Shown: positions 48,238 through 63,666 of the stretch, in pieces
How positions within the stretch are numbered: the stretch's first letter is position 1
How the letters are laid out: each line of letters starts with the position of its first letter
DNA from: Alcanivorax sp.
Lineage (GTDB): Bacteria; Pseudomonadota; Gammaproteobacteria; Pseudomonadales; Alcanivoracaceae
NCBI GenBank assembly: GCA_022449455.1
Contig: JAKUPL010000004.1
Coordinates: 1-64,000 of the forward strand
Direction: 5' to 3'
DNA length: 64,000 nucleotides
Position numbers and translations under genes: made by a program
Notes under the pieces: generated by a model
Seen by the model: only the letters and a program-made list of their open reading frames with translations
What the model was told of the DNA's origin: nothing
Database searches by the model: none

Positions 48238-51200
48238 TCAGGCCACGTCCGTGTCGATCACCGCCACCGGGTCGCCGGCGTTGATAATGGCGCCGGGCTT
48301 GCAGTGCAGGCCGGTGACGGTGCCGGCGGCGCTGGCGGTGATTTCGAATTCCATCTTCATGGCTTCCACGATCACCAGGGTCTGGCCTTCCTGCACGGTG
48401 GCGCCTTCCTCTACCAGCAGTTTCCAGACGTTACCGCTGATCTCGGCGCTCACCAGGTGGCCGTCCACCTCGCCGATGTCGGCGCCGCCGCCGCCCAGGA
48501 TGGCGGACTCGATCTGGGCGTCCTCGTCCCGCCAGCGGGCCACTTCCTTCTGGTAGGCGGCCTGCTGGTTGTCGCGAAAGGCGACCATTTCCGGCTCGAT
48601 GTCGTCCAGGAAGCGGTGGTAATCCGCCAGTGAGAATTTCTCTTCGGTGATCTGCACCTCGAGACGGCCTTCGCGGAAGGCATCGCGCATCCCCGCCAGT
48701 TCTTCCTCACTCACCGGGTAATAGCGCACCTGATCGAAGAAGCGCAGCAGCCAGGGCTCACCGGTTTTGAACTGGCGGTTTTTGAGGTGCTTGTTCCAGA
48801 TCGGCAGGGTGCGGCCCACCAGTTGGTAGCCGCCGGGGGAGTCCATGCCGTAGATGCACATATAGACGCCGCCGATGCCCACGGTGCCCTCGGCGGTGTA
48901 GGTGCGCGCCGGGTTGTACTTGGAGGTCATCAGCCGGTGGCGCGGGTCCACCGGCACCGCGCAGGGGGCACCCAGATAAACGTCGCCCAGGCCCAGCACC
49001 ATGTAGCTGGCCTGGTAGACGATCTCCTTGACCCGCTCGATGGAATCCAGCCCGTTGATGCGGCGGATGAACTCCACGTTGTTGGGGAGCCAGGGTGCGT
49101 CGCCGCGAATGGTTTCCTGGTAGCGCTTCACCGCGTCCAGGGTGGCGCTGTCCTCGAACGCCAGCGGCAGGTGCAGCACCCGGGAGGTGACCACCATGTC
49201 GGCCACGGAGCCGATGGTGGCTTCCCGAGCCAGCAGGGTGTTCACCAGGTCGGTCTGGTGGATGACCCGGGAATCGTAGTGCACTTGCAGGCTGCGTACG
49301 CCAGGAGACAGTTCCAGAATGCCGCCCACCTTGTCGCCCTGGAGGTTTTCCATCAGGGCGTGGACGCGGAAGCGCAGGTCCAGATCCAGCACGTTATCGC
49401 CGTACTCGATCAGAATGTATTTGTCGCCGGCCTGGCGGTAGGTGATGCGCGGCGCCTGGTCGGTGGCGTCCAGTTCGGCGAGCATGGTAGGCGAAGTGAA
49501 GGCGGTTTCCGGTTTCGGCACGGCGGGCACATCGGGGGTGGCCGGTTGCAGGGTCTCGATGGCGTGATCGCGGGCTTTCTCCAACGCCAGCGCCTCGTCG
49601 AACGCCATCGGTACGAAGCGGATGCTGTCGCCGGGCTTCAACTGCCCCACCTTCCACAGCTCCGCTTTGGCGATGGTCACCGGGCACACGAAGCCGCCCA
49701 GGCTGGGGCCGTCCTTGGTGAGGATCACCGGGAAATCGCCGGTGAAGTTGACGCTGCCCACGGCGTATTCGCAGTCGTGAATGTTGGACGGGTGCAGGCC
49801 GGCCTCGCCGCCGTCGGTGCGGGTCCAGCTTGGTTTCGGGCCCACCAGGCGGATGCCCAGGCGGTTGGAGTTGTAGTGCACCTGCCAGTCGGCGCTGAAG
49901 AATTCCTCGATGGCATCCTCGGTGAAAAAGTCCGGCGCGCCGTGGGGGCCGTACAGCACCTTTATTTCCCACTGTTGCGGGTAATCCGGAATCAGCGCGG
50001 CGTCCGGCGCCGCCGGTTCATGCTCCGGGGCCGGGGTGGGGCAGCCCGCCAGTTGTGGCTGGCAGATCGACATCACGTCGCCCTTGCGCAGGGTGCGCCC
50101 GCCGTGGCCGCCGAACCGGCCGAGCACGAAGGTGGACTTGCTGCCCAGGTAGTCGGGCACATCGATGCCGTTGCGCACGGCGATATAGGTGCGGCAGCCG
50201 CTGGTCACCTTGCCGGTAACCAGGGTCTGGCCGGCCTTCACCGCCACCGGTTGCCAGAGCGCCACCGGCTCGCCGTCCAGGGTGGCGTCGCAGCCGGCGC
50301 CGGTGATCGCCATCACCGTGTCGCTGTGGAAGCGCAGGGAGGGGCCAACCAGCGTGGCCTCCAGCCCGGCGGCGCTGGCGTGGTTGCCGACGATGCGGTT
50401 GCCGATCCGGAACGCGTAGTCGTCCATGGGGCCGGACGGCGGCACGCCGATGTCCCAGTAACCGGCGCGGCCCGGGTAGTCCTGCACCGTGGTGTAGGTG
50501 CCCGGGTCGACGATCTCGAAGGCGGTGGGCGTGTACTGGAAGCTCTCCAGGTAGCGGGTGGAGACCTTGCCTTCGGCCACCGCCGGGTCGCGCAGAATCT
50601 GGCGCAGGTAGTCCAGGTTGGTGGCGATGCCGGACAGGCGGGTGGCGGCCAGGGCGTCGCGCATGTTGTCGAGGGCGGCGGCGCGGTCGGCGCCGTGTAC
50701 GATCACCTTGGCCAGCATCGGGTCGTAGTGCGGGCTCACCTCGGTGCCGGTGTCCACCCAGCCGTCCAGGCGGATGTTGTCCGGGAAGAACACTTCGGTC
50801 AGTTCGCCGGGGCTGGGCTGGAAATCCTTGAGGGCGTCCTCGGCGTAAATGCGTACTTCCATGGCGTGGCCGTCGGGCCGGTAATCCCGGTCCAGGGGCA
50901 CGCTGTCGCCGCCGGCCAACTGAAGCATCCAGGCCACCAGGTCCACGCCGAACACGGCTTCGGTGACGCCGTGCTCGACCTGCAGGCGGGTGTTCACCTC
51001 CAGGAAATAGAATTCGTCGCGCTCGTCGTCGTAGATGTATTCCACCGTGCCGGCGGATTGGTAGTTCACCGATTCGCCCAGACGCACGGCGCTGTCGTGC
51101 AGTTTTTCCCGGGTGGCTTGCGGCAGGTTCGGGGCCGGTGTCTCCTCCACCACTTTCTGGTTGCGCCGTTGCAGGGAACATTCCCGTTCGCCCAGGGCCA

Positions 51201-51864
51201 GCACCTTGCCCTGGCCGTCGCCGAAAATCTGCACTTCGATATGGCGGGCGCGAGCCACGAACCGTTCGATAAAGACGCCGGAGTCGGAGAAGAAACTTTC
51301 ACCCAGGCGCTTCACGGATTCGAACGCGGCCACCAGTTCCGCCTCGTCGTCGCAGCGGCTCAAGCCGATGCCGCCGCCACCGGCGGTGCTTTTCAGCATC
51401 ACCGGGTAGCCGATGTGGTGGGCGGCTTGTTTGGCGTCATCCAGGCTTTGCAGAAGGTCGGTGCCCGGCGCCAGCGGCACGCCGGCGGCTTCCGCCAGGG
51501 CGCGGGCCTCGTGCTTGAGGCCGAAGCGGCGCAGCTGGTCCGGGGTCGGGCCCACGAACACCACGCCCCGGGCGGCGCAGGCCTCGGCGAAGTCGGCGTT
51601 CTCGGAGAGAAAGCCGTAGCCGGGGATCACCGCGTCGGCGCCGGTGTCCTTCACCGCTTGTAGAATCAGGTCGCTGCGCAGGTAGCTCTCCGCCGCGGTC
51701 TGGCCGCCCAGGGCCACCGCCTCATCGGCGGCGGCCACGTGCTGGCTGTTGCGGTCGGCGTCGGAGTACACCGCCACCGAGGCGATGCCCAGGCTCTTGA
51801 GCGTGCGGCAGATGCGCACCGCGATCTCGCCCCGGTTGGCGATCAGGACCTTCTTCAAAGCCAT
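48238..51864 (-). CDS. uca: urea carboxylase (biotin-dependent)
   Basis: 1208 residues, full length. Order: biotin carboxylase (about 1-450; ATP-grasp loop KSTAGGGGIGLSR near 158), AHS2/KipA-like half of the carboxyltransferase (from TAFEIVDPGTYTTVQDYPGR near 478), AHS1/KipI-like half (from ITYRQAGDKYILIEYGDN near 820) and a biotinyl domain with the biotin lysine in VEAMKME near 1170. It makes allophanate from urea, bicarbonate and ATP. Some relatives use guanidine, but no carboxyguanidine deiminase genes or guanidine riboswitch are seen here, which favours urea. One base after the allophanate hydrolase stop. Confidence 0.93.
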   Translation of the reverse strand: MALKKVLIANRGEIAVRICRTLKSLGIASVAVYSDADRNSQHVAAADEAVALGGQTAAESYLRSDLILQAVKDTGADAVIPGYGFLSENADFAEACAARGVVFVGPTPDQLRRFGLKHEARALAEAAGVPLAPGTDLLQSLDDAKQAAHHIGYPVMLKSTAGGGGIGLSRCDDEAELVAAFESVKRLGESFFSDSGVFIERFVARARHIEVQIFGDGQGKVLALGERECSLQRRNQKVVEETPAPNLPQATREKLHDSAVRLGESVNYQSAGTVEYIYDDERDEFYFLEVNTRLQVEHGVTEAVFGVDLVAWMLQLAGGDSVPLDRDYRPDGHAMEVRIYAEDALKDFQPSPGELTEVFFPDNIRLDGWVDTGTEVSPHYDPMLAKVIVHGADRAAALDNMRDALAATRLSGIATNLDYLRQILRDPAVAEGKVSTRYLESFQYTPTAFEIVDPGTYTTVQDYPGRAGYWDIGVPPSGPMDDYAFRIGNRIVGNHASAAGLEATLVGPSLRFHSDTVMAITGAGCDATLDGEPVALWQPVAVKAGQTLVTGKVTSGCRTYIAVRNGIDVPDYLGSKSTFVLGRFGGHGGRTLRKGDVMSICQPQLAGCPTPAPEHEPAAPDAALIPDYPQQWEIKVLYGPHGAPDFFTEDAIEEFFSADWQVHYNSNRLGIRLVGPKPSWTRTDGGEAGLHPSNIHDCEYAVGSVNFTGDFPVILTKDGPSLGGFVCPVTIAKAELWKVGQLKPGDSIRFVPMAFDEALALEKARDHAIETLQPATPDVPAVPKPETAFTSPTMLAELDATDQAPRITYRQAGDKYILIEYGDNVLDLDLRFRVHALMENLQGDKVGGILELSPGVRSLQVHYDSRVIHQTDLVNTLLAREATIGSVADMVVTSRVLHLPLAFEDSATLDAVKRYQETIRGDAPWLPNNVEFIRRINGLDSIERVKEIVYQASYMVLGLGDVYLGAPCAVPVDPRHRLMTSKYNPARTYTAEGTVGIGGVYMCIYGMDSPGGYQLVGRTLPIWNKHLKNRQFKTGEPWLLRFFDQVRYYPVSEEELAGMRDAFREGRLEVQITEEKFSLADYHRFLDDIEPEMVAFRDNQQAAYQKEVARWRDEDAQIESAILGGGGADIGEVDGHLVSAEISGNVWKLLVEEGATVQEGQTLVIVEAMKMEFEITASAAGTVTGLHCKPGAIINAGDPVAVIDTDVA

Positions 51865-51865
51865 T

Positions 51866-53635
51866 TCATACCCCCTTGATGTAATTTCTCCAGCCCCCCA
51901 GGGCGGTGATGTCCTTGGCGTCGGGAATGGCCCAGCCTTCGCAGATAAAGCCTTTCACCCGGCGGCCGTCCTCGGTTTCCAGGGTGCCCATGCCCAGCGG
52001 GCCGGGTATCAGCGCCACGAAGCTGCCGAACTCGGTGATCGGCAATTTCCAAAGCTCGATCTCGATGGCGGCGCCGTCGTCGGCGCGGATCAGGCCGGGC
52101 TTGGGCGGCGTGGTGTTGGCCAGGGCGTACAGGCGATAGCAGGGCGCGGTGCGGGTGGTTTCCAGCAGCACGCCGTGGCGTTCGGTGAGTTGGTAATTCA
52201 GCGGCATGCCGGACAGGTGCGCGCCCACCACCGCCACGGTGACGGTGCCGTCGTCCCGGTCCTTGTCGTCCTCCGCCGCCGGCAACGCCGGTTGCTGGTC
52301 GGTGACGCCGGCCTTCCAGGGGCGGTGGCGCTGCCAGCGCCGGCCGAACTCGGCCAGGGCGGCGTCGTACCAGGCCGGACCGATCAGGGTGATGCCGGTG
52401 GGCAGGCCGTCGCCGTCACGGAAACCGCCGGGCAGGGCCAGGGCGCACATATCGAGCAGGTTGACGAAGTTGGTCCAGGTGCCGAGCTGGCTGTTGAGCG
52501 TGATCGGGTCGGCGTTCACCGCCGCGCGGGTGTAGATGCCCGGCGTGCTGGGCACCACCAGGGCGTCGATGCCGGCCATCAGCTGGTCCGCTTGCCGGCG
52601 CAGGTCCGCCAGTTGGTACTGGGCGCGGAAGCCGTCGGCGGCGCTCATGTCCCGGGCCGGGAGAATCACGTCGCGGATTACCGGCAGCAGGGCGTCCGGG
52701 TCTTCCAGCAGCGGCTCCGCCACGGTGTAGCGTTCCGCCACCCAGGGGCCCTGGTAGAGCAGGCGGGCGGTTTCATGGAGCACTTCCAGATCCATGGGCA
52801 CCAGTTCGGCGATGGTATCCAGTTCCTGCAGTTGCCGTTGCCAGGCGGCGGCGGCCTGGTCGTCACCGAACCAGGGCGTGTCCTTGGGCACGCCCAGACG
52901 CGGTTTTTCCGGCAGGGCGGTGGGCACGCCGGCGGGCGCGTGGCGGGCGTAACCGTCCTGTTCGTCGAAGCCTTTGTAGATGTCGAATACGGTTTCCGCG
53001 TCGTCCACGCTCACCGCGAACACGCTGATGCAATCCAGGGTGCGGCAGGCGGGCACCACGCCGCGGGTGCTCATGCTGCCCTTGGTGGGCTTCAGGCCGA
53101 CGATGTTGGTGAGCGCCGCCGGCACCCGACCGGAGCCGGCGGTGTCGGTGCCCAGCGCGAAGGGCACCAGCCCCAGGCTGACCACGGCGGCGGAACCGGA
53201 GCTGGAACCGCCGGTGACATAGTCGCCATTGAACGGGTTGGGCACTTCACCGTAGGGCGAACGCACGCCCACCAGCCCGGTGGCCAGCTGGTCCAGGTTG
53301 GTCTTGCCCACCAGGATGGCGCCGGCATCCAGCAGCGCCTGCACCGCCGGTGCGGTTTCCTTGGCGCTGTAAGCGTAGGCCGGGCAGGCGGCGGTGGTGG
53401 GCAGGCTGCCCACGTCGATGTTGTCCTTGACCGCGAAGGGCACGCCGTACAGAGGCAGGGCCGGATCGCTGAGTCGCTCCGCCTGGGCCAGCAGACTGGA
53501 TTCGTCGAGCAGGTGGATCCAGAGAGCCCGTTCGCTGTCCTGCAGCAGAGCGGACAGCGCCTTCATGGCGGAAACCGGCGTCAGTTTTTTGCGCCGGTAG
53601 GCGGAGCGCCATTGATCGATGGTCCAGCCAAGCAC
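51866..53635 (-). CDS. atzF: allophanate hydrolase
   Basis: 589 residues: an amidase-signature domain with the Ser-cisSer-Lys triad (Lys70 in PFAVKDNIDVG, Ser in GGSSSGSAA near 145, Ser168 in TDTAGSGR) and the C-terminal domain of about 130 residues (from VAVVGAHLSGMPLNYQL near 470) found in AtzF and urea amidolyase. It converts allophanate to two ammonia and CO2, serving both urea carboxylase and biuret hydrolysis. It starts with GTG 53635, only five bases from the operator palindrome, with GAGG inside that palindrome as ribosome-binding site. Confidence 0.93.
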   Translation of the reverse strand: MLGWTIDQWRSAYRRKKLTPVSAMKALSALLQDSERALWIHLLDESSLLAQAERLSDPALPLYGVPFAVKDNIDVGSLPTTAACPAYAYSAKETAPAVQALLDAGAILVGKTNLDQLATGLVGVRSPYGEVPNPFNGDYVTGGSSSGSAAVVSLGLVPFALGTDTAGSGRVPAALTNIVGLKPTKGSMSTRGVVPACRTLDCISVFAVSVDDAETVFDIYKGFDEQDGYARHAPAGVPTALPEKPRLGVPKDTPWFGDDQAAAAWQRQLQELDTIAELVPMDLEVLHETARLLYQGPWVAERYTVAEPLLEDPDALLPVIRDVILPARDMSAADGFRAQYQLADLRRQADQLMAGIDALVVPSTPGIYTRAAVNADPITLNSQLGTWTNFVNLLDMCALALPGGFRDGDGLPTGITLIGPAWYDAALAEFGRRWQRHRPWKAGVTDQQPALPAAEDDKDRDDGTVTVAVVGAHLSGMPLNYQLTERHGVLLETTRTAPCYRLYALANTTPPKPGLIRADDGAAIEIELWKLPITEFGSFVALIPGPLGMGTLETEDGRRVKGFICEGWAIPDAKDITALGGWRNYIKGV

Positions 53636-53639
53636 GTTC

Positions 53640-53669
53640 GCATACCTCGTTGTATACCAGTAGGTATGC
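53640..53669. promoter_or_regulatory. GntR operator of the allophanate hydrolase/urea carboxylase operon
   Basis: GCATACCT (53640-53647) and AGGTATGC (53662-53669) are perfect 8-bp inverted arms. In the centre is TTGTATACCAG (53650-53660), identical to 58686-58696. The site spans the expected transcription start and the ribosome-binding site, so binding would block expression. Confidence 0.72.
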
Positions 53670-53676
53670 CGATCAG

Positions 53677-53692
53677 TGCAAGGCCGGTGCCA
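53677..53692 (-). promoter_or_regulatory. sigma-54 promoter of the allophanate hydrolase operon
   Basis: On the minus strand TGGCACCGGCCTTGCA matches the -24/-12 consensus TGGCACG-N4-TTGCW at all but one defined position, with GG and GC exactly ten bases apart. The -12 GC is 43 bases upstream of the start codon. This implies RpoN and nitrogen (NtrC-type) control. Confidence 0.8.
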
Positions 53693-53808
53693 GCTTCCCG
53701 GCGATGCGGCGCGGTGCCAGTGTTTACGGGCGCTGGCGGTGGTTTGGTGAAAAAGCGCGGTGGTGTTCCGGGTTGGCGTTCTGCTTCATCACGGGGCGCG
53801 CGGCACTA

Positions 53809-54711
53809 TTACTGTGCGGCGTCGGCCAGTTCGCCCTTGAGGTGCTCCACGAAGCGCGCGGTGGCCACCGGCAGGGCCCGGGAGTGTTCCATGCCCAGTG
53901 TCAGACGGCCCCGGCTCAGGCCCCGATCCGCCAGCGGCAGGGCGCGCATGCCGCCGGGCAGGTGCGAGGGCGGCATGCCGATCTGAATCTGGAAGCAGAC
54001 GCCGCCGCTTTTCACCGCGAAGTTGCGCATCAGTTCGAAGGAATCCGATTCCAGCGCCGGCTCCAGGCGCAGCGAGCGGCGCGCCAGGAATTCGTCCAGC
54101 AGGGCCCGCCCGCCCAGGGACCGGTCCGGCAGCGCCAGCGGGTAGGCCACGCAATCGGACAGCCGCACCTTGTCCAGCCGGGTGAGCGGATGGTCCGGCG
54201 AGACGAAGGCGCACAGCCGCTGTTCCACGTCCATCAGGGTGCGTATCTCCGGGTCCGGCGCCGGGTTGAACACCAGCCCGATGTCGGCGCGAAACTCCTT
54301 CAGGTACCGGTACACCTCCTCGCGGCCGCAGATAAAGGTGGTGAAGCGGATTTTGGGATGGGTTTTCTGAAACGAGCAGATCGCCCGGGGCAGCAGCTCC
54401 GCCGCCATGCCCTCGATGGCGGCGATGCGCACCTCGCCGCGCCGCACGCTTTGCAGGTCCTCGATCTCCGATAGGGTGCGTTCCAGCTCCGCCATCTGCT
54501 TGCGGGCGTAGGCCACGAACAGTTCGCCGGCGGCGGTCAGGCGCACGCCCCGGGCCCGCCGCTCGAACAGGTCGGTGCCGATTTCCGCTTCGATATCCAG
54601 AATGCGGCGGTTCACCGCCGACGACACCACATTGAGCTGTTCCGCGGCTTTGCGGATCGAACCGCTGCGGGCCACGGCGTCCACATAACGAAGAAAGCGG
54701 ATGTTCTGCAT
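53809..54711 (-). CDS. LysR-family transcriptional regulator
   Basis: 300 residues. N-terminal LysR helix-turn-helix (FLRYVDAVARSGSIRKAAEQL within 6-26, VSSAVNRRILDIEAEIGTDLFER following) and a two-lobed effector domain from about 90. It is divergent from the transporter and cyanuric acid hydrolase operon, the arrangement seen for AtzR and atzDEF in Pseudomonas sp. ADP, so it is the likely activator of that operon with cyanuric acid or a related inducer. Confidence 0.88.
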   Translation of the reverse strand: MQNIRFLRYVDAVARSGSIRKAAEQLNVVSSAVNRRILDIEAEIGTDLFERRARGVRLTAAGELFVAYARKQMAELERTLSEIEDLQSVRRGEVRIAAIEGMAAELLPRAICSFQKTHPKIRFTTFICGREEVYRYLKEFRADIGLVFNPAPDPEIRTLMDVEQRLCAFVSPDHPLTRLDKVRLSDCVAYPLALPDRSLGGRALLDEFLARRSLRLEPALESDSFELMRNFAVKSGGVCFQIQIGMPPSHLPGGMRALPLADRGLSRGRLTLGMEHSRALPVATARFVEHLKGELADAAQ

Positions 54712-54730
54712 CTCGGGCTCCGTCGAATGA

Positions 54731-54751
54731 GCGATGCCGGAACGGCATCGC
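54731..54751. promoter_or_regulatory. LysR-type binding site
   Basis: GCGATGCCG-GAA-CGGCATCGC is a perfect 9-bp inverted repeat with a 3-base centre, containing ATGCC-N5-GGCAT, a T-N11-A LTTR box. It lies 20 bases from the LysR start and 112 bases before the binding-protein gene, in the divergent gap. Confidence 0.7.
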
Positions 54752-54863
54752 TATGACCAGAAAATAGCGCTGGTGGGCTGCGCTCGAAGGATTCTATCTT
54801 GCCTCGCAATGAACGCCCAGGCACGGGGCCCGGGCGTGAACAACGCGAGCAGGAGAGCTGTCC

Positions 54864-55922
54864 ATGCCACTGACCACCGCTTCGTCACCGTCCACGGGCC
54901 GTTCGCGGCCGGTGTATTTCCTTTTCGGGCTGCTGGCGGCGCTGAGCCTGGCGCTGGCTCCGGCGGCCCGCGCCGAGCGGGACATCCGCTTCACCGCCAA
55001 CTGGGCCTTCGAGGCCTCCAACGCGCCCTTCGTGCTGGCCGACCAGCGCGGCTACTTCGAGGAAGAAGGGTTGGATGTGACCGTGGACGCCGGTGAGGGC
55101 TCCTCGGCGGTGATCACGCGCATCGCCGGTGGCAGCTACCAGGCCGGCTTTGGCGACATTAATACGCTGATCGAATTCAACGCCCGCCATCCGGACAACC
55201 GCCAGCGCATGGTCTACATGATCTACAACCGGCCGCCGCTGGCGATCATCACCCTCAAGGACGCCGGCATCGAGGCGCCGAAGCAACTGGAAGGCAAGTC
55301 CATCGGCGCGCCGGCCAACGATTCCGCCTACCGCATGTTCCCGTTGTTCGCCGAGGCCACCGACCTGGACAGCGACAAAATCCGCTTTGAAAACGTGGCG
55401 CCCAATCTGCGTGAAGCCATGCTGGTGCAGGGTAAGGTGGACGCCATCGCCGGCTTCCCGCCCAGCGCGGTGCCCAACCTGCTCAAGCTGGGCATCGACG
55501 AGGACGACATCCGCATCTTCTATTACTCCGACTATGGCGTGCCGCTGTACAGCAACGGCCTGATCGTCACCGAGCGCATGATCGAGGAGGAGCCGGAGGT
55601 GGTCCAGGGCCTGGTACGCGCCACCCACCGCGGCCTCAAGGCGAGCATTGATGATCCGCTGGCCGCCGCCCAGGCGCTGCGCAAGAAGGACAGCCTGATC
55701 AACGTGGATCTGGAAGAACGCCGCATGCGCTTTTTGATCGACAACCAGCTGATCACCGAAGAGGTGAAGCAGAACGGTCTCGGCGCGGTGGACCCGGAAC
55801 GTCTGGCCGCGTCCATTGAGGTGGTGGCCGAAGCGCTGGAACTGGACAACCCCCCGGCGTCGGAACAGGTATTCGACGGTGAATTCCTGGACGCGTTGGA
55901 AGGCCGGAGCGTGGCACCATGA
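54864..55922 (+). CDS. NitT/TauT-type ABC transporter substrate-binding protein
   Basis: 352 residues with a signal peptide ending near AARA (about residue 37). NMT1/SsuA-like features: FTANWAFEASNAPFVLADQR near 42-61, GYFEEEGLDVTVDAGEGSS, and the GDINTLIEFNA loop near 97. Homologues bind pyrimidine-like, sulfonate or cyanurate-like ligands; the next gene makes cyanuric acid or barbiturate the best guess. RBS GCAGGAG. Confidence 0.85.
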   Translation: MPLTTASSPSTGRSRPVYFLFGLLAALSLALAPAARAERDIRFTANWAFEASNAPFVLADQRGYFEEEGLDVTVDAGEGSSAVITRIAGGSYQAGFGDINTLIEFNARHPDNRQRMVYMIYNRPPLAIITLKDAGIEAPKQLEGKSIGAPANDSAYRMFPLFAEATDLDSDKIRFENVAPNLREAMLVQGKVDAIAGFPPSAVPNLLKLGIDEDDIRIFYYSDYGVPLYSNGLIVTERMIEEEPEVVQGLVRATHRGLKASIDDPLAAAQALRKKDSLINVDLEERRMRFLIDNQLITEEVKQNGLGAVDPERLAASIEVVAEALELDNPPASEQVFDGEFLDALEGRSVAP

Positions 55923-56992
55923 GAACCCGTGTTCTGCGTTTTCCCTGCGCCGGGCCGGATGACCTGACGCCGCTGCGCGAGGCCCTGGCCGACGGTCGCC
56001 TGCACCCGGAACGGGTGGTGGCGGTGCTCGGCAAGACCGAGGGCAACGGTTGCGTCAACGACTTCACCCGCGCCTTCGCCACCACCGTGCTCAAGCGCTT
56101 TTTCGCCGAGCGTCTGGCGCTGCCCGAGGACACCGTGGCCGAGCGCATCGCCTTCGTGATGTCCGGCGGCACCGAGGGCGGCCTGTCACCGCACTGGCTG
56201 GTGTTCGAGGTGGACGAGACCGCCTCGCCGGCGCCGGAGCAGCCGGGATTGGCGGCGGGCATCGCCTTCACCGAAACGTTCGCGCCGGAACAGATCGGCC
56301 GTCTGGACCAGGTGCGCGCCACCGCCGCGGCGGTGCGCCGGGCCATGGCCGAGGCCGGCATCGAACGGGCCGGGGACGTGCATTACGTGCAGATCAAATG
56401 CCCGCTGCTCACCGCCGCCCGCTGCGAGCAGGCGCGCCAGCGCGGCGCCACCGTGGCCACCACCGACACCTACGAATCCATGGGCTATTCCCGGGGCGCC
56501 TCGGCCCTGGGCGTGGCCCTGGCCCTGGGCGAGGTGGACGAGCACGCGCTCAACGACGCGGCCATCTGTCATGACTTCGCCCTGTGGTCCGGCCGCGCCA
56601 GCACCTCCGCCGGCATCGAGCTGATGCGTAACGAGATCCTGGTGCTGGGCAACGCGCCGGGCTGGCACCCGGCCCTGCGCATTGGCCATGACGTGATGGT
56701 CGATGCCCTGGACGGCGAGGCGCTGGACCGCGCCCGGGCCACCTTGGGCGACGGCGAACTGGTGGCGCTGCTGGCCAAGGCGGAGCCATCGCGCAGCGGC
56801 GAAATCCGCGGCCGCCGCCACACCATGTGGGACGACAGCGACATCAACGCCACCCGTCATGCCCGCGCCCTGGTGGGCGGCGTGCTGGGCGGGCGCACCG
56901 GCGACCTGGCCCTGTTCGTGTCCGGCGGCGCCGAGCACCAGGGCCCGGACGGCGGCGGCCCACTGGCGGTGATCGTGGAGAATGGATCATGA
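55919..56992 (+). CDS. ring-opening amidohydrolase, probable cyanuric acid hydrolase (AtzD/barbiturase family)
   Basis: 357 residues, the family length, with the internal three-fold repeat. Each repeat gives a Ser/Lys pair: Lys39 in GKTEGNGCVNDFTR and Ser82 in SGGTEGG; Lys160 in YVQIKCPLLT and Ser228 in ASTSAG; Lys287 in ALLAKAEPS and Ser335 in SGGAEHQGPDGGGP. It opens the s-triazine ring of cyanuric acid to carboxybiuret, which decays to biuret; barbiturase is the alternative. Overlaps the binding-protein gene by four bases. Biuret and allophanate hydrolases encoded nearby support the cyanuric acid route. Confidence 0.88.
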   Translation: MRTRVLRFPCAGPDDLTPLREALADGRLHPERVVAVLGKTEGNGCVNDFTRAFATTVLKRFFAERLALPEDTVAERIAFVMSGGTEGGLSPHWLVFEVDETASPAPEQPGLAAGIAFTETFAPEQIGRLDQVRATAAAVRRAMAEAGIERAGDVHYVQIKCPLLTAARCEQARQRGATVATTDTYESMGYSRGASALGVALALGEVDEHALNDAAICHDFALWSGRASTSAGIELMRNEILVLGNAPGWHPALRIGHDVMVDALDGEALDRARATLGDGELVALLAKAEPSRSGEIRGRRHTMWDDSDINATRHARALVGGVLGGRTGDLALFVSGGAEHQGPDGGGPLAVIVENGS

Positions 56993-57798
56993 GCGAGGGC
57001 TTTATCGAACTGGACCAGGCCACTCTGTGCTATCCGCGCAGCGACACTCCGGCGGTGGTGGACATCTCCCTGAGCGTGCCCAGCGGCGGCAGTGTCGCGC
57101 TGGTGGGGCCCAGCGGCTGTGGCAAAAGCTCGGTTCTGCGGCTGATCGCTGGCCTGGAAACCGCCACCGGAGGCCGGGTGACCGTGGGCGGCGGCGCCCC
57201 CGGTGCCTCCCGGGGCGCGGTGGGCGTGGCCTTTCAGAAAAGCACCATGCTCGACTGGCGCACGGTGCTCGACAATGTGCTGCTGCCGTTGGAAGTGGTG
57301 AGCGGGCCCACCGGTTTCCGCGCCCGCCGCGTCGAATACCGCCAGCGCGCCCTGGCATTGCTGGAGCGCCTCGGCCTGGGCGAGTACGCCCATCGCTACC
57401 CCTGGGAAATGTCCGGCGGCATGCAGCAGCGCGCCTCCCTGTGCCGCGCCCTGATCCACGAACCGGATCTGCTGTTGTTGGACGAGCCCTTCGCCGCCCT
57501 GGACGCCTTTACCCGCGAGGATCTGTGGGGCCTGGTGCAGTCGATCTGGCGGGAGCGCCGTCCCACCACCGTGCTGGTGACCCATGACCTGCGCGAGGCG
57601 GTCTATCTGGCCGACACGGTCTACGTGTTTTCCAAGGGGCCCGGGCGCATCGTCCACCGGGAGGAGATCGGCCTGCCCCGACCGCGCACCGTGGAGGGCA
57701 CCTTCGAGCCGGCGTTCGTGGAGTACGTGCAGCGCCTGCGTGGCCACATCGTCGAGGTGCGTGAAACCGACGCCGACAAGGAGCCCGCCCATGGCTGA
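56989..57798 (+). CDS. NitT/TauT-type ABC transporter ATP-binding protein
   Basis: 269 residues. Walker A GPSGCGKSSVLRL near 39-51, signature MSGGMQQRASLCRALI near 139-155, Walker B LLLLDEPFAALDAF near 161-174 and H-loop VTHDLREAVYLAD. ATG 56989 overlaps the hydrolase stop by four bases; the longer upstream reading is inside the hydrolase gene. Confidence 0.92.
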   Translation: MSEGFIELDQATLCYPRSDTPAVVDISLSVPSGGSVALVGPSGCGKSSVLRLIAGLETATGGRVTVGGGAPGASRGAVGVAFQKSTMLDWRTVLDNVLLPLEVVSGPTGFRARRVEYRQRALALLERLGLGEYAHRYPWEMSGGMQQRASLCRALIHEPDLLLLDEPFAALDAFTREDLWGLVQSIWRERRPTTVLVTHDLREAVYLADTVYVFSKGPGRIVHREEIGLPRPRTVEGTFEPAFVEYVQRLRGHIVEVRETDADKEPAHG

Positions 57799-58549
57799 CT
57801 GGATACTCAATCGGCGGGTGCTGCCGTGGCTGGTGACCCTGGGGACCTTCCTGCTGTGGGAGGGCGTGGTGCGCGGCTTCGCCATCAAAACCTTTATTCT
57901 GCCGCCGCCGTCGCTGATCGCCACCACCCTGGCGGCCCAGTGGGAGCCGATTCTGCAGCACTCCCTGCAAACGCTGATGACCACCCTGGTGGGGCTGGCG
58001 TTGGCGGTCGGTTTCGGCGTGGTGCTGGGGCTGGCGGTGGGCGCCAGCGAGAAGGTGTACGCCGGTCTCTATCCGCTGATGGTGGCCTTCAACAGCATTC
58101 CCAAGGTGGCGCTGGTGCCGATTCTGGTGATCTGGTTCGGCATTGGCACGGTGCCGGCGATTCTTACCGCCTTTCTGATTTCGTTCTTCCCGATCGTGGT
58201 CAACATCGCCACCGGCCTGGCCACGGTGGAGCCGGAACTCAACGATCTGATGCGTTCCCTGGGTGCCAACCGCCTCACGGTGCTGCGCAAGGTGGGCCTG
58301 CCGCGCACCCTGCCGTATTTCTTCGCCGCCTTGAAAGTGGCGGTGACGCTGGCCTTCGTGGGCTCGGTGATTTCCGAAACCGTGGCCGCCAACGCCGGCG
58401 TCGGCTACATGATGATGGTGGCCGGCAGCCGCTTCGAGGTGCCGCTGGTGTTCGCCGGCCTGGTGGTGGTGGGCGCCATGGGCATCGTGCTCTACCAGGC
58501 GTTCGAGTGGTTGGAGCGTCGCCTGACCTTCTGGGCGTTCCGCGGCTGA
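57791..58549 (+). CDS. NitT/TauT-type ABC transporter permease
   Basis: 252 residues with about six membrane segments and the EAA loop (RSLGANRLTVLRKVGLPRTL near 155-175) of SsuC/TauC permeases. ATG 57791 overlaps the ATPase gene by eight bases. Last gene of this operon, followed by a terminator. Confidence 0.92.
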   Translation: MADWILNRRVLPWLVTLGTFLLWEGVVRGFAIKTFILPPPSLIATTLAAQWEPILQHSLQTLMTTLVGLALAVGFGVVLGLAVGASEKVYAGLYPLMVAFNSIPKVALVPILVIWFGIGTVPAILTAFLISFFPIVVNIATGLATVEPELNDLMRSLGANRLTVLRKVGLPRTLPYFFAALKVAVTLAFVGSVISETVAANAGVGYMMMVAGSRFEVPLVFAGLVVVGAMGIVLYQAFEWLERRLTFWAFRG

Positions 58550-58555
58550 GGCGGT

Positions 58556-58585
58556 GCGCGCCGCTGGTGCGCGGCGCGCCGTTTT
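58556..58585 (+). terminator. terminator of the cyanuric acid transport/hydrolase operon
   Basis: GCGCGCCGC (58556-58564) and GCGGCGCGC (58571-58579), perfect 9-bp stem, 6-base loop, followed by CGTTTT. Confidence 0.8.
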
Positions 58586-58630
58586 GCACACAAGCAGTGC
58601 GCCCGGCCTTGAACGGGGAATGACGATTTC

Positions 58631-58663
58631 GCCGGAAACCCCTGTTTTAAAGGCGTTTCCGGC
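58631..58663. other. inverted repeat upstream of the sigma-54 promoter
   Basis: GCCGGAAAC (58631-58639) and GTTTCCGGC (58655-58663) are perfect 9-bp arms with a 15-base spacer, ending four bases before the -24 element. No T-run. It does not resemble the NtrC consensus, so it may be a site for another regulator or an RNA structure of the previous transcript. Confidence 0.55.
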
Positions 58664-58666
58664 AGA

Positions 58667-58682
58667 TGGCATGAAGGCTGCT
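58667..58682 (+). promoter_or_regulatory. sigma-54 promoter of the BMP transporter/amidase operon
   Basis: TGGCATGAAGGCTGCT matches TGGCACG-N4-TTGCW with two mismatches; the invariant GG and GC are ten bases apart. It lies 98 bases before the first gene. Confidence 0.72.
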
Positions 58683-58685
58683 TAC

Positions 58686-58696
58686 TTGTATACCAG
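58686..58696. promoter_or_regulatory. GntR box of the BMP transporter/amidase operon
   Basis: TTGTATACCAG is identical over 11 bases to the centre of the operator at 53640-53669, and sits at the same place relative to the -12 element (start of transcription). The outer palindrome arms of the first site are not conserved here. Confidence 0.65.
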
Positions 58697-58779
58697 CATG
58701 CATTCCAGGATGCACTCCACCTTCGCGCGCCGCCCGGCGGCGCCTTCCATCCAAGGTCAGTGTTAAAGGACGCCTCATC

Positions 58780-59889
58780 ATGTCGCACATCAATCGCCGA
58801 AACTTCATCAAGGCCGCCGGCCTGCTGGGCGCCGCCGCGGCGCTGCCGTTCAACCCGCTGCGCGCGGCGCAGAAGGAAATCACCGTGGGCTTCCTGTACG
58901 TGGGCGCCCGCGATGACTTCGGTTACAACCAGTCCCACGCGGAAGCCGCCGCCCTGGTCAAGAAGATGCCCGGGGTCACCGTGGTGGAACAGGAGAACGT
59001 GCCGGAGACGGTGGCGGTGCAGCGCGCCATGGAAGCGATGATTCGCCAGGATGGCGCCAGCCTGATTTTCCCCACCTCGTTCGGCTACTTCGACCCGCAT
59101 GTGCTGAAAGTGGCGCAGCGTTTCTCCGACACCCGCTTCGCCCACTGTGGCGGCCTTTGGGAGAAGGGCAAGCACCCCATGAACGTGGGCAGCTTCTTCG
59201 GCTACATCGACGAGGGCCAGTACCTCAACGGCGTGGTGGCCGGCCATATGAGCAAGTCGGCCAAGCTCGGCTTCGTGGCCGCCAAACCGATTCCCCAGGT
59301 GCTGCGCAACATCAACGCCTTCACCCTGGGCGCGCGCTCGGTGAACCCGGACATCACCACCTCGGTGATTTTCACCGGTGACTGGTCGATGCCGGTGAAG
59401 GAGGCGGAAGCCACCAACAGCCTGATCGACAGCGGCTGTGACGTCATCACCTGCCACGTGGACGGTCCCAAGGTGCTGGTGGAAACCGCCGAGAAACGCG
59501 GTGTCATGACCTGCGGCTACCACGCCAGCCAGGCGCAGCTGGCGCCGGAAGGCTACCTCACCGGCGCCGAGTGGAACTGGGTGACGCCCTACCAGGAACA
59601 CGTCAAGGCGGCGCTCAACGGCGAGCCGATGATCAATTTCCTGCGCGGTGGCCTCAAGGAAGGCTTCGTCAAAACCTCCCCCTACGGGCCGGCGGTCAGC
59701 GCCGAAGCGAAGAAGGACGCGGACGCGGTGAAAGCGAAGATGCTGAGCGGCGACTACGTGATCTTCGGCGGCCCGCTGAAGAACAACCGGGGCGAGGTGG
59801 TGATCGCCGACGGCACCGACTACCAGCAGACCGCCGTGGAACTGGAGCGCATGGACTACCTGGTGGAGGGCGTGCGTGGCCAGCTCTGA
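58780..59889 (+). CDS. BMP-family ABC transporter substrate-binding protein
   Basis: 369 residues. The N-terminus has a twin-arginine signal (NRRNFIKAAGLLGAAAALP), so export is probably by Tat. The mature protein is of the BMP/Med type: EITVGFLYVGARDDFGYNQS near 32-51, TSFGYFDPHVLKVAQ near 107, and FFGYIDEGQYLNGVVAGHMS near 145. BMP proteins usually bind nucleosides; clusters with amidases suggest small amides, biuret or ureides. First gene of the sigma-54 operon. Confidence 0.87.
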   Translation: MSHINRRNFIKAAGLLGAAAALPFNPLRAAQKEITVGFLYVGARDDFGYNQSHAEAAALVKKMPGVTVVEQENVPETVAVQRAMEAMIRQDGASLIFPTSFGYFDPHVLKVAQRFSDTRFAHCGGLWEKGKHPMNVGSFFGYIDEGQYLNGVVAGHMSKSAKLGFVAAKPIPQVLRNINAFTLGARSVNPDITTSVIFTGDWSMPVKEAEATNSLIDSGCDVITCHVDGPKVLVETAEKRGVMTCGYHASQAQLAPEGYLTGAEWNWVTPYQEHVKAALNGEPMINFLRGGLKEGFVKTSPYGPAVSAEAKKDADAVKAKMLSGDYVIFGGPLKNNRGEVVIADGTDYQQTAVELERMDYLVEGVRGQL

Positions 59890-59913: not shown

Positions 59914-61035
59914 ATGTTGAAGCCCTGGCTCGGGCGGGCGGCGGTGCTGGCGTTGCCGGCGCTGCCCACGCTGCTGGCGATGCTGACCACGGCGGTGCTG
60001 TTCATCCTGTTTCTTCTGATCCAGGGGCAGCCCGCCTGGCAGGCCGGTCCGCTGGTGTTCGAAGGCGCCTTCGGTTCCATGTTCGCCTGGGAAAACACCC
60101 TGATGCGCGCCGCGCCGCTGATGCTCACCGCCCTGTGCGTGGCGCTGCCGGCCCGCGCCGGCCTGATCATCATCGGCGGTGAAGGCGCGCTGGTGCTCGG
60201 TGGTCTGGCGGCGGCGGTGACGCCGCTGTGGCTGCCGGCGTTGCCGGCCTGGCCGATGCTGATCGCCATGGGCGTGGCGGCGATGCTGGCCGGCGGCCTG
60301 TGGATCGGGCTGAGCGGCTGGCTGCGCCAGAAGCGCGGCGTCAACGAGACCATCGGCAGCCTGCTGCTCTCTTATATCGCGCTGGCCATTTTCCGCCATC
60401 TGGTGGAGGGGCCGCTGCGCGACCCCAACAGTTTGAACAAACCGTCCACGCCGCCGCTGGACAGTGGCTATCAGATCGGCGTGATCAGCGACAGCTTCTA
60501 TGTGCACTGGGGCCTGGTGGCCGGCGTGGTGACCTGCGTGCTGGCCTGGGTGCTGGTGCGCTACAGCGTGGTGGGTTTTTCCCTGCGCATCGTCGGCGGC
60601 AACCCGCGGACGCCGCGCATGCTGGGTCTGCCGGTGGACCGTCTGGTGCTGCTCACCTGCGTGCTGGGCGGGGCCGCTGCCGGTCTGGCCGGTATGTACG
60701 AAGTCAGCGCCGTGCAGGGCAGCGCCAATACCGCGCTGATCTCCGGCTACGGCACCGCCGGCATCCTGGTGGCCTTCGCCGCCCGCCATAACCCGCTGGG
60801 CATTATCGTCTGCGCGATTCTGCTCGGTGGCCTGGAGGCCAGTGGCGGTCTGCTGCAACGGCGCCTGGGGTTGCCCGACGCCACCACTCTGATCCTGCAG
60901 GGCATTCTGTTCATCAACCTGCTGGCCTGGGAGGCGCTCACCCGCCGCACTCTGGACTGGCGCCTATGGCTGCGCGGCCACTGGATCGCGGCCCCTTCAT
61001 CCCGCGCCGGAAGCACGGAGGTCAGCCATGGCTGA
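59914..61035 (+). CDS. BMP-type ABC transporter permease 1
   Basis: 373 residues, about nine membrane segments, with BPD_transp_2 features: PARAGLIIIGGEGALVLGGL near 82-100, NETIGSLLLSYIAL near 144-157 and RIVGGNPRTPRMLGLPVDR near 226-245. It pairs with the next permease; their genes overlap by eight bases. Confidence 0.88.
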   Translation: MLKPWLGRAAVLALPALPTLLAMLTTAVLFILFLLIQGQPAWQAGPLVFEGAFGSMFAWENTLMRAAPLMLTALCVALPARAGLIIIGGEGALVLGGLAAAVTPLWLPALPAWPMLIAMGVAAMLAGGLWIGLSGWLRQKRGVNETIGSLLLSYIALAIFRHLVEGPLRDPNSLNKPSTPPLDSGYQIGVISDSFYVHWGLVAGVVTCVLAWVLVRYSVVGFSLRIVGGNPRTPRMLGLPVDRLVLLTCVLGGAAAGLAGMYEVSAVQGSANTALISGYGTAGILVAFAARHNPLGIIVCAILLGGLEASGGLLQRRLGLPDATTLILQGILFINLLAWEALTRRTLDWRLWLRGHWIAAPSSRAGSTEVSHG

Positions 61036-61948
61036 GTCGGAACTGTCGATTTTTCTGCTGGCCTTGCTGGCCGGCGCCATCCGGGTGGGCACGCCGTTCC
61101 TGTTCGTCAGCCTGGGCGAATGCCTGACCGAGAAAGGCGGGCGCATCAACCTGGGCCTGGAGGGCATTCTGGTTACCGGGGCGATGACCGGCTACGCGGT
61201 GTCCTACCTGTCCGGCTCACCCTGGTTGGGGGTGTTCGCCGCCGGCCTGTCGGGCCTGGCCCTGGGGCTGGTGCATGGAGTGATCTGCTCGTTGCCACGG
61301 GTTAACGACATCGCCTTCGGTATCGCGCTGATCCTGTTCGGTACCGGCCTGGCGTTCTTCCTGGGCAAGGATTTCATCCAGCCCAGCGCCCCCATGCTGC
61401 CGTCCATCCCTCTTGGATTCTGGAGTGACGACACCCGGGTGCGCTCGGCGCTCAACGTCAATGTGCTGTTCTTTATCGGCGTGGCGCTGGCCTTCGTGTT
61501 GCATTGGAGCCTGCGCGGCACTCGCTGGGGGCTGATGCTGCGGCTGGTGGGTGACCACGAGGACTCCGCCCAGGCGCTCGGTTACCGGGCCGCCGGGGTG
61601 CGCATCGTGGCCACCGGCGTGGGCGGCTTCCTGGCCGGCGTGGGCGGCGCCTACCTGTCGCTGTACTACCCGGGCAGCTGGAACGAAGGCTTGTCCAGCG
61701 GCCAGGGCCTGATGGCGGTGGCGCTGGTGATCTTCGCCCGCTGGCAACCGATCAACTGCCTGTGGGCGGCGTTGCTGTTCGGTGCCGCCGGCGCCGTGGG
61801 CCCGGCCCTGCAGGCCATCGGCATTGGCTGGGGCTACTACCTGTTCAACGCCATTCCCTATGTGCTGACCCTGGCGGTGATGGTGATCACCTGCCGGCCG
61901 GACCGAACCCTCAGCGGCGCGCCCGGCGAACTCAGCCTGAACCGATAA
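61028..61948 (+). CDS. BMP-type ABC transporter permease 2
   Basis: 306 residues, hydrophobic. TEKGGRINLGLEGILVTGAM near 33-52 and RLVGDHEDSAQALGYRA near 174-190 match the second permease of nucleoside-type BMP systems. Together with the ATPase that begins at 63668 it completes the importer, the two enzymes being interposed. Confidence 0.88.
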   Translation: MAESELSIFLLALLAGAIRVGTPFLFVSLGECLTEKGGRINLGLEGILVTGAMTGYAVSYLSGSPWLGVFAAGLSGLALGLVHGVICSLPRVNDIAFGIALILFGTGLAFFLGKDFIQPSAPMLPSIPLGFWSDDTRVRSALNVNVLFFIGVALAFVLHWSLRGTRWGLMLRLVGDHEDSAQALGYRAAGVRIVATGVGGFLAGVGGAYLSLYYPGSWNEGLSSGQGLMAVALVIFARWQPINCLWAALLFGAAGAVGPALQAIGIGWGYYLFNAIPYVLTLAVMVITCRPDRTLSGAPGELSLNR

Positions 61949-61970: not shown

Positions 61971-62975
61971 ATGTCCAGCGGACTCTCCGGTTTGAACAAA
62001 ACCCCCAACGGCGTGGTGATGGGGCTGGCGCAACTGGCGCTGCCCGATCCGCGCACCCGCGATCAACTCTGGCAACAGACGCAACGCGTGGTCGAGATGA
62101 TCGGCAAGGCCCGGCGCAGCATGCCGGAGATGGACCTGATCGTGTTTCCGGAATATTCCCTGCACGGCCTGTCCATGGACACCTCGCCGGACATCATGTG
62201 CGACCTGGACGGCCCGGAAGTGGCGGTGCTCAAGCAGGCCTGCGTCGATCATAAAATCTGGGGCTGCTTCTCGATCATGGAGGCCAACCCCAACGGCAAC
62301 CCGTTCAATTCCGGTCTGATCATCGACGACACCGGCGCGCTGAAACTCTACTACCGCAAGATGCACCCCTGGGTGCCGGTGGAACCCTGGGAGCCCGGCG
62401 ACCAGGGCATCCCGGTGTGCGAAGGGCCCAACGGTTCCACCCTGGCGCTGATCATCTGCCACGACGGGATGTTCCCGGAGATGGCCCGGGAGTGTGCCTA
62501 CAAGGGCGCCGAGATCATGATCCGCACCGCCGGCTATACGGCGCCGATCCGCCACTCCTGGAAGATCACCAATCAGGCCAATGCCTTCACCAACCTGATG
62601 CAGACCGCCAGCGTTTGTATGTGCGGCTCCGACGGCACCTTCGATTCCATGGGCGAGGCCATGTTCGTCAATTTCGACGGCGTGCCGCTGGTGGAAGGCA
62701 GCGGCCGCGCCGACGAAATCGTCTGCTGCGAGCTGCGCCCGGACCTGGTGCGCGAAGCGCGCGAGCACTGGGGCGTGGAGAACAACATCTACCAGTTCGG
62801 TCACCGTGGCTACGTGGCGGTGAAAGGCGGCGCCGGCGATTGCCCCTACACCTATATGCGGGATCTGGCGGCGGGCCGCTACCGTCTGCCCTGGGAAGAC
62901 AGGGTGAAACACACCGATGGCCGCGCCTTTGGTTTCGCGCCGCCGGAGCGCACTTACACGCCAGGAGAGCATTGA
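61971..62975 (+). CDS. amiF: formamidase/aliphatic amidase (nitrilase superfamily)
   Basis: 334 residues, equal in length to Helicobacter AmiF. Nitrilase triad: Glu61 in FPEYSLHG, Lys130 in YRKMHPW and Cys163 in ICHDGMFPE. Further AmiF-like segments are [15 protein letters not shown] near 101-115, [19 protein letters not shown] near 268-286 and [12 protein letters not shown]. It hydrolyses formamide or a short amide to ammonia. RBS GAGAAGG. One base before the biuret hydrolase-like gene. Confidence 0.88.
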
Positions 62976-62976
62976 T

Positions 62977-63666
62977 ATGAGCGAGCACTTCATCACCGCC
63001 GACCCTTATCCCTGGCCGTACAACGGCGACCTGCGCCCGGACAATACGGCGTTGATCGTGATCGATATGCAGACCGACTTCTGTGGTGAAGGCGGTTACG
63101 TGGACAGCATGGGCTACGACCTGTCCCTGACGCGGGCTCCCATCGAGCCGATCAAGAAGGTAATGGCGGCGCTGCGCGAACGGGGCTTTCTGATCATTCA
63201 CACCCGTGAAGGGCATCGCCCGGACCTGGCCGACCTGCCCGCCAACAAGCGCTGGCGCTCGCAACGGATCGGCGCCGGCATCGGTGACGCCGGCCCCTGC
63301 GGACGCATCCTGGTACGCGGCGAACCGGGCTGGGACATCATTCCGGAACTGGCGCCCCTGGACGGCGAGGTGATCATCGACAAGCCCGGCAAGGGCTCGT
63401 TCTGCGCCACCGACCTGGAGCTGATCCTCAATACCCGGGGCATCGACAACATCATTCTCACCGGCATCACCACCGATGTGTGCGTGCACACCACCATGCG
63501 CGAAGCCAACGACCGTGGCTTCGAATGCCTGCTGCTGGAGGACTGCTGCGGCGCCACCGACAAGGGCAACCACGACGCCGCCATCAAGATGGTGAAAATG
63601 CAGGGCGGGGTGTTCGGCAGCGTGGCCGATTCCGGCGCGCTGCTGGACGGCCTGGGAGCGATTTGA
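62977..63666 (+). CDS. biuH: biuret amidohydrolase-like cysteine hydrolase (isochorismatase family)
   Basis: 229 residues. Catalytic triad of isochorismatase-like hydrolases: Asp34 in [10 protein letters not shown] (Asp30 is the other candidate), Lys139 in [14 protein letters not shown] and Cys169 in [20 protein letters not shown] (residues given in part). The N-terminal [10 protein letters not shown] and [20 protein letters not shown] segments agree with my memory of Rhizobium BiuH, which turns biuret into allophanate; ureidoacrylate hydrolase RutB is the alternative, but no rut genes are present and the ring hydrolase and allophanate hydrolase are. RBS CAGGAGAG. Confidence 0.85.

Follow-up and report, generated by a model that had tools for sequence, protein, structure and literature searches.

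How could two separate operons for the use of urea and biuret be placed under the control of nitrogen status and of their own substrates at the same time? This question is raised by a 64,000-nucleotide stretch of DNA from Alcanivorax sp. (contig JAKUPL010000004.1, positions 1 to 64,000; hereafter the window). The window lies on contig C34 of a host genome of 4,223,410 bases in 70 contigs, and the organism can be placed with Alcanivorax/Alloalcanivorax, judging from the names of the closest GntR proteins. Operon 1 encodes allophanate hydrolase (AtzF), urea carboxylase and a GntR-family regulator. Operon 2 starts with the gene for a BMP-type transport protein and includes the biuret amidohydrolase BiuH. 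The original prediction, made from the sequence alone, stated that both operons share a sigma-54 promoter and an 11-bp box, at which the GntR protein might act as repressor. From comparison with relatives (labelled G for genomes and L for loci), it is likely that this GntR/FCD protein is a local repressor of the two predicted sigma-54 operons, acting through GTATAC-centred operators and probably released by allophanate.

Two predicted promoters with one box

The two promoters and their common box were found exactly where they had been placed. The predicted sigma-54 promoter of operon 1 (53677..53692, minus strand) reads TGGCACCGGCCTTGCA from 53692 to 53677, while that of operon 2 (58667..58682, plus strand) reads TGGCATGAAGGCTGCT. 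Each of these -24/-12 elements is one position off TGGCAYRNNNNTTGCW (15/16 consensus), with a gap of 10 bases between GG and GC in a TGGCAY-N5-TTGC context, and the same element occurs in relatives. The box itself, TTGTATACCAG, is not frequent: the whole 4.22-Mb genome holds two exact copies, at 53650-53660 and 58686-58696. When the promoter and the box are combined in one pattern (TGGC-N7-YTGC-N(4-30)-TKGTRTACMA), just both promoters are retrieved from the host genome, and none from the reversed control. Across a family set of 46 genomes this pattern was found at 44 places, versus one control place. A looser form (KGTATACM) gave 53 versus 6, the host genome again contributing both promoters only. 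The observation of a shared, rare box beside near-consensus -24/-12 elements is confirmed.

At operon 1 the box is indeed the core of a 30-bp palindrome, operator 1 (53640..53669), in which 24 of the 30 positions match their own reverse complement. It contains three GYATRC hexamers at exact 12-bp steps (53664-53669, 53652-53657 and 53640-53645). Operator 2 (58685..58705) consists of CTTGTATACCAG (58685-58696) and a right-hand hexamer, GCATTC (58700-58705). The 11-mer is reversed relative to transcription at operon 1, which matters little because the core is nearly palindromic. It lies 16 bases past the -12 element at operon 1 and 3 bases past it at operon 2. With the C of GC taken as -12, the box of operon 1 spans about +7 to +17 (the palindrome -3 to +27) and that of operon 2 about -7 to +4. 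The box lies near the predicted start of transcription in both operons, so that its claimed position at the start holds only roughly.

Conservation in the family

Regions could be fetched for 35 relatives, and AtzF was found in 32 of them, giving 33 promoters together with the window (the region of L056 ends inside the operon). In all 33 aligned promoters the -24/-12 element is located 57-60 bp before AtzF, and promoter and palindrome are kept at every one of them, six carrying a variant form with a GTGTAC centre and different outer arms. Conservation at the orthologous operons, which the original prediction had named as a check, is therefore observed for operon 1. In L078 and L080, where no AtzF was found in the region, the promoter and the box are found before urea carboxylase instead. 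Overall, the box is present in 34 of the 35 fetched relatives.

The palindrome averages 1.76 bits per column in 27 promoters from two genera, versus 1.04 in the spacer of the -24/-12 element, 0.72 in the gap before the palindrome and 0.36-0.46 in the upstream flanks. The promoters were aligned on the -24/-12 pattern, so the conservation of that element is partly due to selection; the palindrome played no part in the selection. In relatives of genus g2 (e.g. L059, L062 and L065) a similar AT-rich stretch, approximately TTAATTATTGTAAAAACA, is found about 25-45 bp before the -24 element of the AtzF promoter.

The box also tracks the regulator. GntR is present, once each, in 36 of the 46 family genomes; 35 genomes possess both box and GntR, nine possess neither, and there is one exception each way. 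Both exceptions are fragmented assemblies: in G014 the GntR gene and a truncated AtzF are on separate contigs, and in G025 the contig ends within the operon and GntR was not found elsewhere in that assembly. For this count G008 was scored as box-bearing from its aligned promoter (the last pattern base differs), and G004 and G031 were scored as box-less, their matches being counted as chance. The 44 pattern places comprise 35 AtzF promoters (urea carboxylase in G042 and G043), three BMP promoters and six others. Among these six, the places in G004, G042 (C18) and G043 (C13:1221689) lie inside open reading frames (ORFs) and were taken as chance, while those in G006 (C1) and G031 were counted as chance without inspection. 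In G005 (C6; L117 6493-6521) promoter and box (TGGCATGAGGTTTGCA, TTGTATACAA) precede a family-5 peptide-type ATP-binding cassette (ABC) transporter operon. This was seen in one genome only, and the operon is a possible extra member of the regulon. The looser-pattern places shared by G018, G019 and G028 and by G022 and G024 are among ORFs where read (L247, L248).

For operon 2, the box and the sigma-54 element before the BMP gene are conserved in L052-L055, the spacer being 1 nt shorter in L054 and L055.

Recurrence in distant relatives

Named genomes were scanned as well and yielded 80 loci. The 34 loci with a GntR at least 46% identical (L126-L158, L181) were used together with L159; the other 45 (at most 39% identity) were left out. 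Among the distant loci with a clear AtzF and a linked GntR, 16 of 19 carry the promoter and the box within 200 bp upstream of AtzF; L132, where the upstream DNA of AtzF is cut too short, is counted among the three non-positives. The positives include Moraxellaceae, Acinetobacter, Pectobacterium, Erwinia, Pseudomonas, Marinobacter, Marinimicrobium, Oceanobacter, Amantichitinum and Bordetella. In the remainder of these loci the background amounts to four places in 1.26 million strand-bases, with none in 3.7 million shuffled bases.

Since the core motif was used to select the distant sites, its conservation there is circular. Positions that were not selected are conserved as well, namely C at -3, G at +8, G at +12 and C at +17 (in 25 rows, a few of which read one site twice). 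The same holds in the distant promoters for the flanking C/G of CTTGTATACAAG and for the outer hexamer positions, which did not enter the selection either. The description that fits the operator best is thus GTATAC flanked on either side by G-N-AT-N-C-like elements, in 12-bp steps. In Marinobacter nitratireducens (L159, 9908) promoter and box are found directly upstream of a 42-43% identical GntR gene, which suggests autoregulation in a distant homologue.

The gene context of the regulator was counted in 31 of the best 34 named loci (L126-L155 and L181; L156, which is cut short, L157 and L158 are excluded). Thirteen are accompanied by BMP/BiuH genes, 11 by urea carboxylase, five by AtzF alone and two by none of these; hence 29 of the 31 GntR genes are found beside AtzF, urea carboxylase or BMP/BiuH genes. 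In Burkholderiales, GntR is often linked to the BMP/BiuH operon. Among Burkholderiales, eight BMP upstream regions were read, with box-like sites at three and none at five. Those of L127 and L135 contain a promoter-like element (14/16) and a box with two mismatches and one mismatch, respectively; in L139 a 15/16 element is followed by GGTATACC, spotted by eye. The Burkholderiales contig L127 possesses both promoter types and is a separate repeat of the two-operon design.

In a class-wide sample, the GntR carrier G216 has promoter and box before AtzF. In G152 the AtzF gene is part of a riboswitch-controlled guanidine operon without box, and promoter and box (one mismatch) precede the gene cluster in which its GntR is encoded. 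The idea that the box accompanies allophanate hydrolase genes in general was rejected, as 28 of 30 class-wide AtzF loci (30 of the 39 genomes over the cut-off) lack promoter plus box, only the host and G216 being positive. This control carries little weight: AtzF is preceded by urea carboxylase in most of the 28, and the DNA upstream of AtzF is then not the operon promoter.

The regulator

The original prediction of a FadR-type GntR gene at the end of one operon is sustained by the domain content: the protein encoded by the last gene of operon 1 (47520..48227, minus strand), the proposed repressor of both operons, combines a GntR winged helix (PF00392, 67.4 bits) with an FCD domain (PF07729, 92 bits), and the box follows this gene across genomes, as described above. 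Residues D135, H139, H183 and H205, which are presumably the metal-site ligands of the FCD domain (Asp and three His), are invariant in 30 aligned sequences. The AlphaFold model has a mean predicted local distance difference test (pLDDT) score of 85.9 and matches PmiR, VanR and TM0439. FCD proteins often bind carboxylates, which would suit allophanate as ligand.

The nearest named models include those of PhnR (TIGR03338, 108 bits) and NanR (65.2 bits). Both identities were rejected, being far under the NCBIfam cut-offs of 271.5 and 260 bits; the gene context also differs from that of NanR/PhnR-type FCD regulators. Membership of the HutC subfamily was likewise rejected (TIGR02018, 22.5 bits versus a cut-off of 220), as the protein contains an FCD domain instead.

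The predicted nitrogen layer

Sigma-54 promoters are normally activated from upstream enhancers. The host genome encodes both RpoN (488.6 bits) and NtrC (748.4 bits, C34:123978). An NtrC-like site, TGCACACAAGCAGTGCG (58585..58601, plus strand), lies about 108 bp upstream of where operon 2 is predicted to start and agrees with the consensus at 10 of 12 positions. A similar site is present in L052-L055, and about 6% of 300-bp stretches taken at random reach this score. Upstream of operon 1 there is a weaker NtrC-like site (53802..53818, minus strand). At related promoters, sites of at least 10/12 were found in 33 of 51 cases, versus 6% of stretches drawn at random from these loci. The 51 are not all independent, as many of them are orthologous, and coding DNA forms part of the random background. 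A gene annotated as urea carboxylase is given at -6.0 in a table that maps the NtrC regulon of Burkholderia cenocepacia (PMC5491218), a value that we read as lower expression without NtrC. Its flanks are transporter genes related to urea carboxylase, and the part of that source available names no GntR beside it (PMC5491218). It is probably another type of cluster, and may be of the guanidine type.

Allophanate as the probable signal

The first gene of operon 1 (51866..53635, minus strand) encodes an allophanate hydrolase of the AtzF type (TIGR02713, 778.7 bits, cut-off 511), which is the sole copy detected genome-wide at E<=1e-120. It is followed by the urea carboxylase gene (48238..51864, minus strand; TIGR02712, 1943.9 bits). 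An active-site Asn has been reported for urea carboxylase and an Asp for guanidine carboxylase (PMC12186494). Asn, here N706, is found in 21 of 21 chosen GntR-linked homologues and Asp in seven of seven riboswitch-linked homologues tested, the assignment of N706 to the reported active-site position being drawn from alignment. With this Asn present and no riboswitch in the window at Rfam gathering scores, the product of 48238..51864 is predicted to be a urea carboxylase and not a guanidine carboxylase.

A second urea carboxylase-like gene of the host genome (L240; G000 C10:50000-66000) carries the Asp and is part of a guanidine carboxylase operon in which riboswitches of both the Guanidine-I and the Guanidine-II type are present. 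In this operon a separate sigma-54-like element (14/16) precedes the first riboswitch, and no AtzF was seen there. The Guanidine-I riboswitch was detected in 12 of 12 family guanidine loci scanned. In 31 of the 46 family genomes, host included, the sole AtzF (E<=1e-120) is linked to GntR; this number is derived from the 36 GntR genomes by subtraction of G023 and G034 (two AtzF), G042 and G043 (AtzF elsewhere) and G014 (split contigs). Since no other AtzF was found, the guanidine operon under riboswitch control would likewise have to rely on the enzyme of the GntR operon.

Four genomes (G001, G003, G011 and G017) are instructive for the nature of the effector. The AtzF-GntR pair persists in them with its promoter and operator, and their sole AtzF is the GntR-linked one. 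BiuH was not found there, and the only urea carboxylase homologue over the cut-off is riboswitch-linked and has the guanidine-type Asp. Among urea, allophanate and biuret, allophanate appears to be the one compound common to the gene settings of GntR and fits them best. Since the GntR-linked operons make or consume allophanate, the inducer of GntR is probably allophanate, as argued from gene context.

In four guanidine loci (L245, L249, L250 and L251, of G018, G019, G028 and G029) the sigma-54-like element is directly followed by TGGTATACC. This is a possible, weak candidate for a GntR operator, as its flanks are equally conserved; no site of this type was seen in the other guanidine promoters read.

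Proposed circuit and alternative readings

The predicted circuit would operate as follows. RpoN, together with NtrC, would supply the signal of nitrogen limitation. GntR would cover the region of the start site and thereby block the polymerase, and allophanate (made by urea carboxylase and BiuH, removed by AtzF) would lift this repression. The outcome would be an AND gate, open when the cell is nitrogen-starved and a substrate is under degradation. Such a gate would govern uptake, the use of urea, biuret and cyanuric acid, and the genome's only allophanate hydrolase found. As the last gene of operon 1, gntR would limit its own synthesis. The operator is located close to the predicted start in all of the promoter groups. 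The distance between promoter and box, counted from the first T of the -24 element, is 18-19 bases at BMP promoters, 23-33 at distant AtzF promoters and 32-33 at most family AtzF promoters (in L138 the automatic score took a left-hand element at 18, the full box being at 30). Blocking of the polymerase may therefore fit better than phased or fixed contacts. Taken together, the comparison supports the interpretation first offered, in which GntR would act at two RpoN promoters.

Several observations weigh against repression of both operons by GntR under nitrogen control. The NtrC-like site of operon 1 is weak (9/12), and a third of the background stretches equal or beat it. When one mismatch is allowed, the box is hardly commoner in the host genome than its reversed control (21 versus 15 places). 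In the family, the operon 2 box is conserved only in the four close relatives L052-L055; in L077, L079 and L081 the BMP gene directly follows AtzD without a promoter or box of its own, and the BMP upstream regions of L132, L134, L141, L143 and L144 lack the box despite a linked GntR. The expected conservation of both boxes thus stands for operon 1, but for operon 2 it is confined to those four relatives and a minority of Burkholderiales operons. Before AtzF, promoter plus box is missing in the 200 bp upstream in L139 and L153. None of the partner genes is seen in L157 and L158, and in G042 and G043 AtzF is located beside the second urea carboxylase homologue, GntR being left with urea carboxylase alone. 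Finally, a close GntR (E<=1e-65) occurs in only three of 369 genomes of the class-wide sample, host included.

Would another ligand serve as well? GntR could act at both promoters and respond to a substrate (urea or biuret) or to some other compound, in line with its company of substrate-specific genes, urea carboxylase in some genomes and BMP/BiuH in others. This is rather unlikely. A search for urea carboxylase next to GntR found none in G001, G003, G011, G017, L130 and L131, and 36 of the 46 family genomes gave no BiuH at E<=1e-50. No single substrate fits all of the contexts; allophanate is shared by them. GntR might also be an activator or a dual regulator at both sites, given that regulators of the GntR superfamily can activate. 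The operator, however, spans the predicted start region at a varying distance from the -12 element, and activators of sigma-54 promoters usually bind upstream; this option is considered improbable.

Two further candidates do without GntR at the boxes. If wholly transcribed, the 30 bases of the operon 1 palindrome fold into an 8-bp stem (z -1.33), and the right arm, judged by eye, overlaps a GAGG that may be a ribosome-binding site, as would be expected of a leader RNA hairpin that controls translation. With the start predicted from the -12 element, however, the stem is lost and folding is no better than in shuffles (z -0.45). The operon 2 box, moreover, lies across and upstream of its predicted start, and the box follows GntR across genomes. 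The hairpin was rejected, as its folding is not significant with the predicted start, and is deemed very improbable. The boxes might instead belong to the LysR regulator encoded at 53809-54711, the nearest upstream gene, which adjoins operon 1 and lies between both operons. Homologues of it were found in only seven of the 35 fetched relatives, against the box in 34. A separate palindrome, GCGATGCCG-GAA-CGGCATCGC (54731-54751), is located in the gap that separates LysR from the divergently transcribed cyanuric acid hydrolase (AtzD) operon. This candidate was rejected as well and is hardly credible, since the box persists in relatives without LysR. The 54731-54751 palindrome is itself likely a LysR site; a similar sequence, GATGCC-N-TAACGGCATCGC, precedes AtzD in L077, L079 and L081.

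Local repression by GntR with release by allophanate is thus the reading retained here. In a wider and more tentative form, held with a little less than even confidence, the protein may be a proteobacterial allophanate sensor, scattered over Beta- and Gammaproteobacteria. As one FCD repressor that accompanies AtzF, urea carboxylase or biuret operons, it would gate RpoN promoters so that the urea, biuret, cyanuric acid and (via the sole AtzF) guanidine routes respond to the intermediate that they share. A protein switch would thereby be coupled to the use of guanidine under riboswitch control.

Further gene content of the locus

Operon 2 (plus strand) starts with a BMP/PnrA-like ABC substrate-binding protein with a twin-arginine translocation (Tat) signal (58780..59889; PF02608, PF10518). 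It is followed by two ABC permease genes, the first at 59914..61035 (NF047929, 144.5 bits, under the cut-off of 400) and the second, assigned from its ORF and position only, at 61028..61948. Next come a formamidase-type amidase (61971..62975; NF009803, 557.4 bits, cut-off 406) and BiuH (62974..63666; NF050097, 426.8 bits, cut-off 370). An ABC ATPase of 510 amino acids, assigned by eye from the sequence, has only its start in the window (63668..64000). Past the window the operon continues (contig C34, about 65,197-66,268) with a second BiuH-like hydrolase and an AtzH-like protein (PF11533 / HpxZ NF033625 matches). The hydrolase scores 241.5 bits to the BiuH model, under the cut-off, and is perhaps a candidate for the triuret hydrolase TrtA, which is about 50% identical to BiuH (PMC7948467).

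Between both operons, and divergent from the LysR gene, lies the transporter/cyanuric acid hydrolase operon. The stretch appears to encode the full route from cyanuric acid via biuret and allophanate to ammonia, plus the entry of urea. The biuret/cyanuric acid part is an optional addition, because BiuH is found at the curated cut-off in eight of the 46 family genomes.

Relation to known systems and significance

The closest known circuit is that of HutC in Pseudomonas, a local repressor of the GntR superfamily that is induced by the pathway intermediate urocanate. Its operator has the form TGTA-N2-TACA, and the protected region overlaps the sigma-54 site of the NtrC-activated hutU operon (PMC12977541), so the type of circuit is known. 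The half-sites resemble TGTATACA in the present boxes. In contrast to HutC, which belongs to the GntR/HutC subfamily, the present regulator has an FCD domain. Its proposed operator lacks the N2 spacer and is extended by outer hexamers at 12 bp, and a single intermediate is supplied by two operons.

In Pseudomonas sp. ADP, nitrogen reportedly controls the use of cyanuric acid (atzR-atzDEF); a sigma-54 promoter is involved, as is a local regulator, AtzR, which is said to be of the LysR type and to activate atzDEF. Unlike that system, the second layer here is a putative repressor of the GntR type that would act on different operons, and the cyanuric acid hydrolase gene belongs to a separate operon flanked by LysR.

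The neighbourhoods themselves have been described. In Ectopseudomonas an atzF-uca tandem is found beside a GntR gene, with a second, guanidine-riboswitch uca elsewhere, and in ammonia oxidisers a gntR-family regulator is found on biuH-bearing contigs with bmpA-nupABC, trtA and atzF (PMC13296017, PMC12625717). As far as the accessible parts of these sources go, the GntR gene is only named, without operator, promoter, targets or effector (PMC13296017, PMC12625717). A description of its operator, targets or ligand was not found in searches of an open-access library that lacks most subscription journals. Guanidine carboxylase operons with Guanidine-I/II riboswitches also yield allophanate (PMC12186494). 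There the ligand is sensed by RNA, and the guanidine operon of the host, in which no AtzF is seen, would depend on the AtzF of the GntR operon.

In the sources at hand the regulator is only named as a neighbour of atzF-uca or biuH; the present analysis proposes its operator and its set of targets, together with a probable signal. A long-annotated operon thereby becomes a testable circuit. If allophanate is the ligand, GntR could serve as a sensor for breakdown products of fertilisers and triazines. If true, the circuit would explain how AtzF is kept in step with its feeders where urea, biuret, cyanuric acid and guanidine converge on this enzyme.

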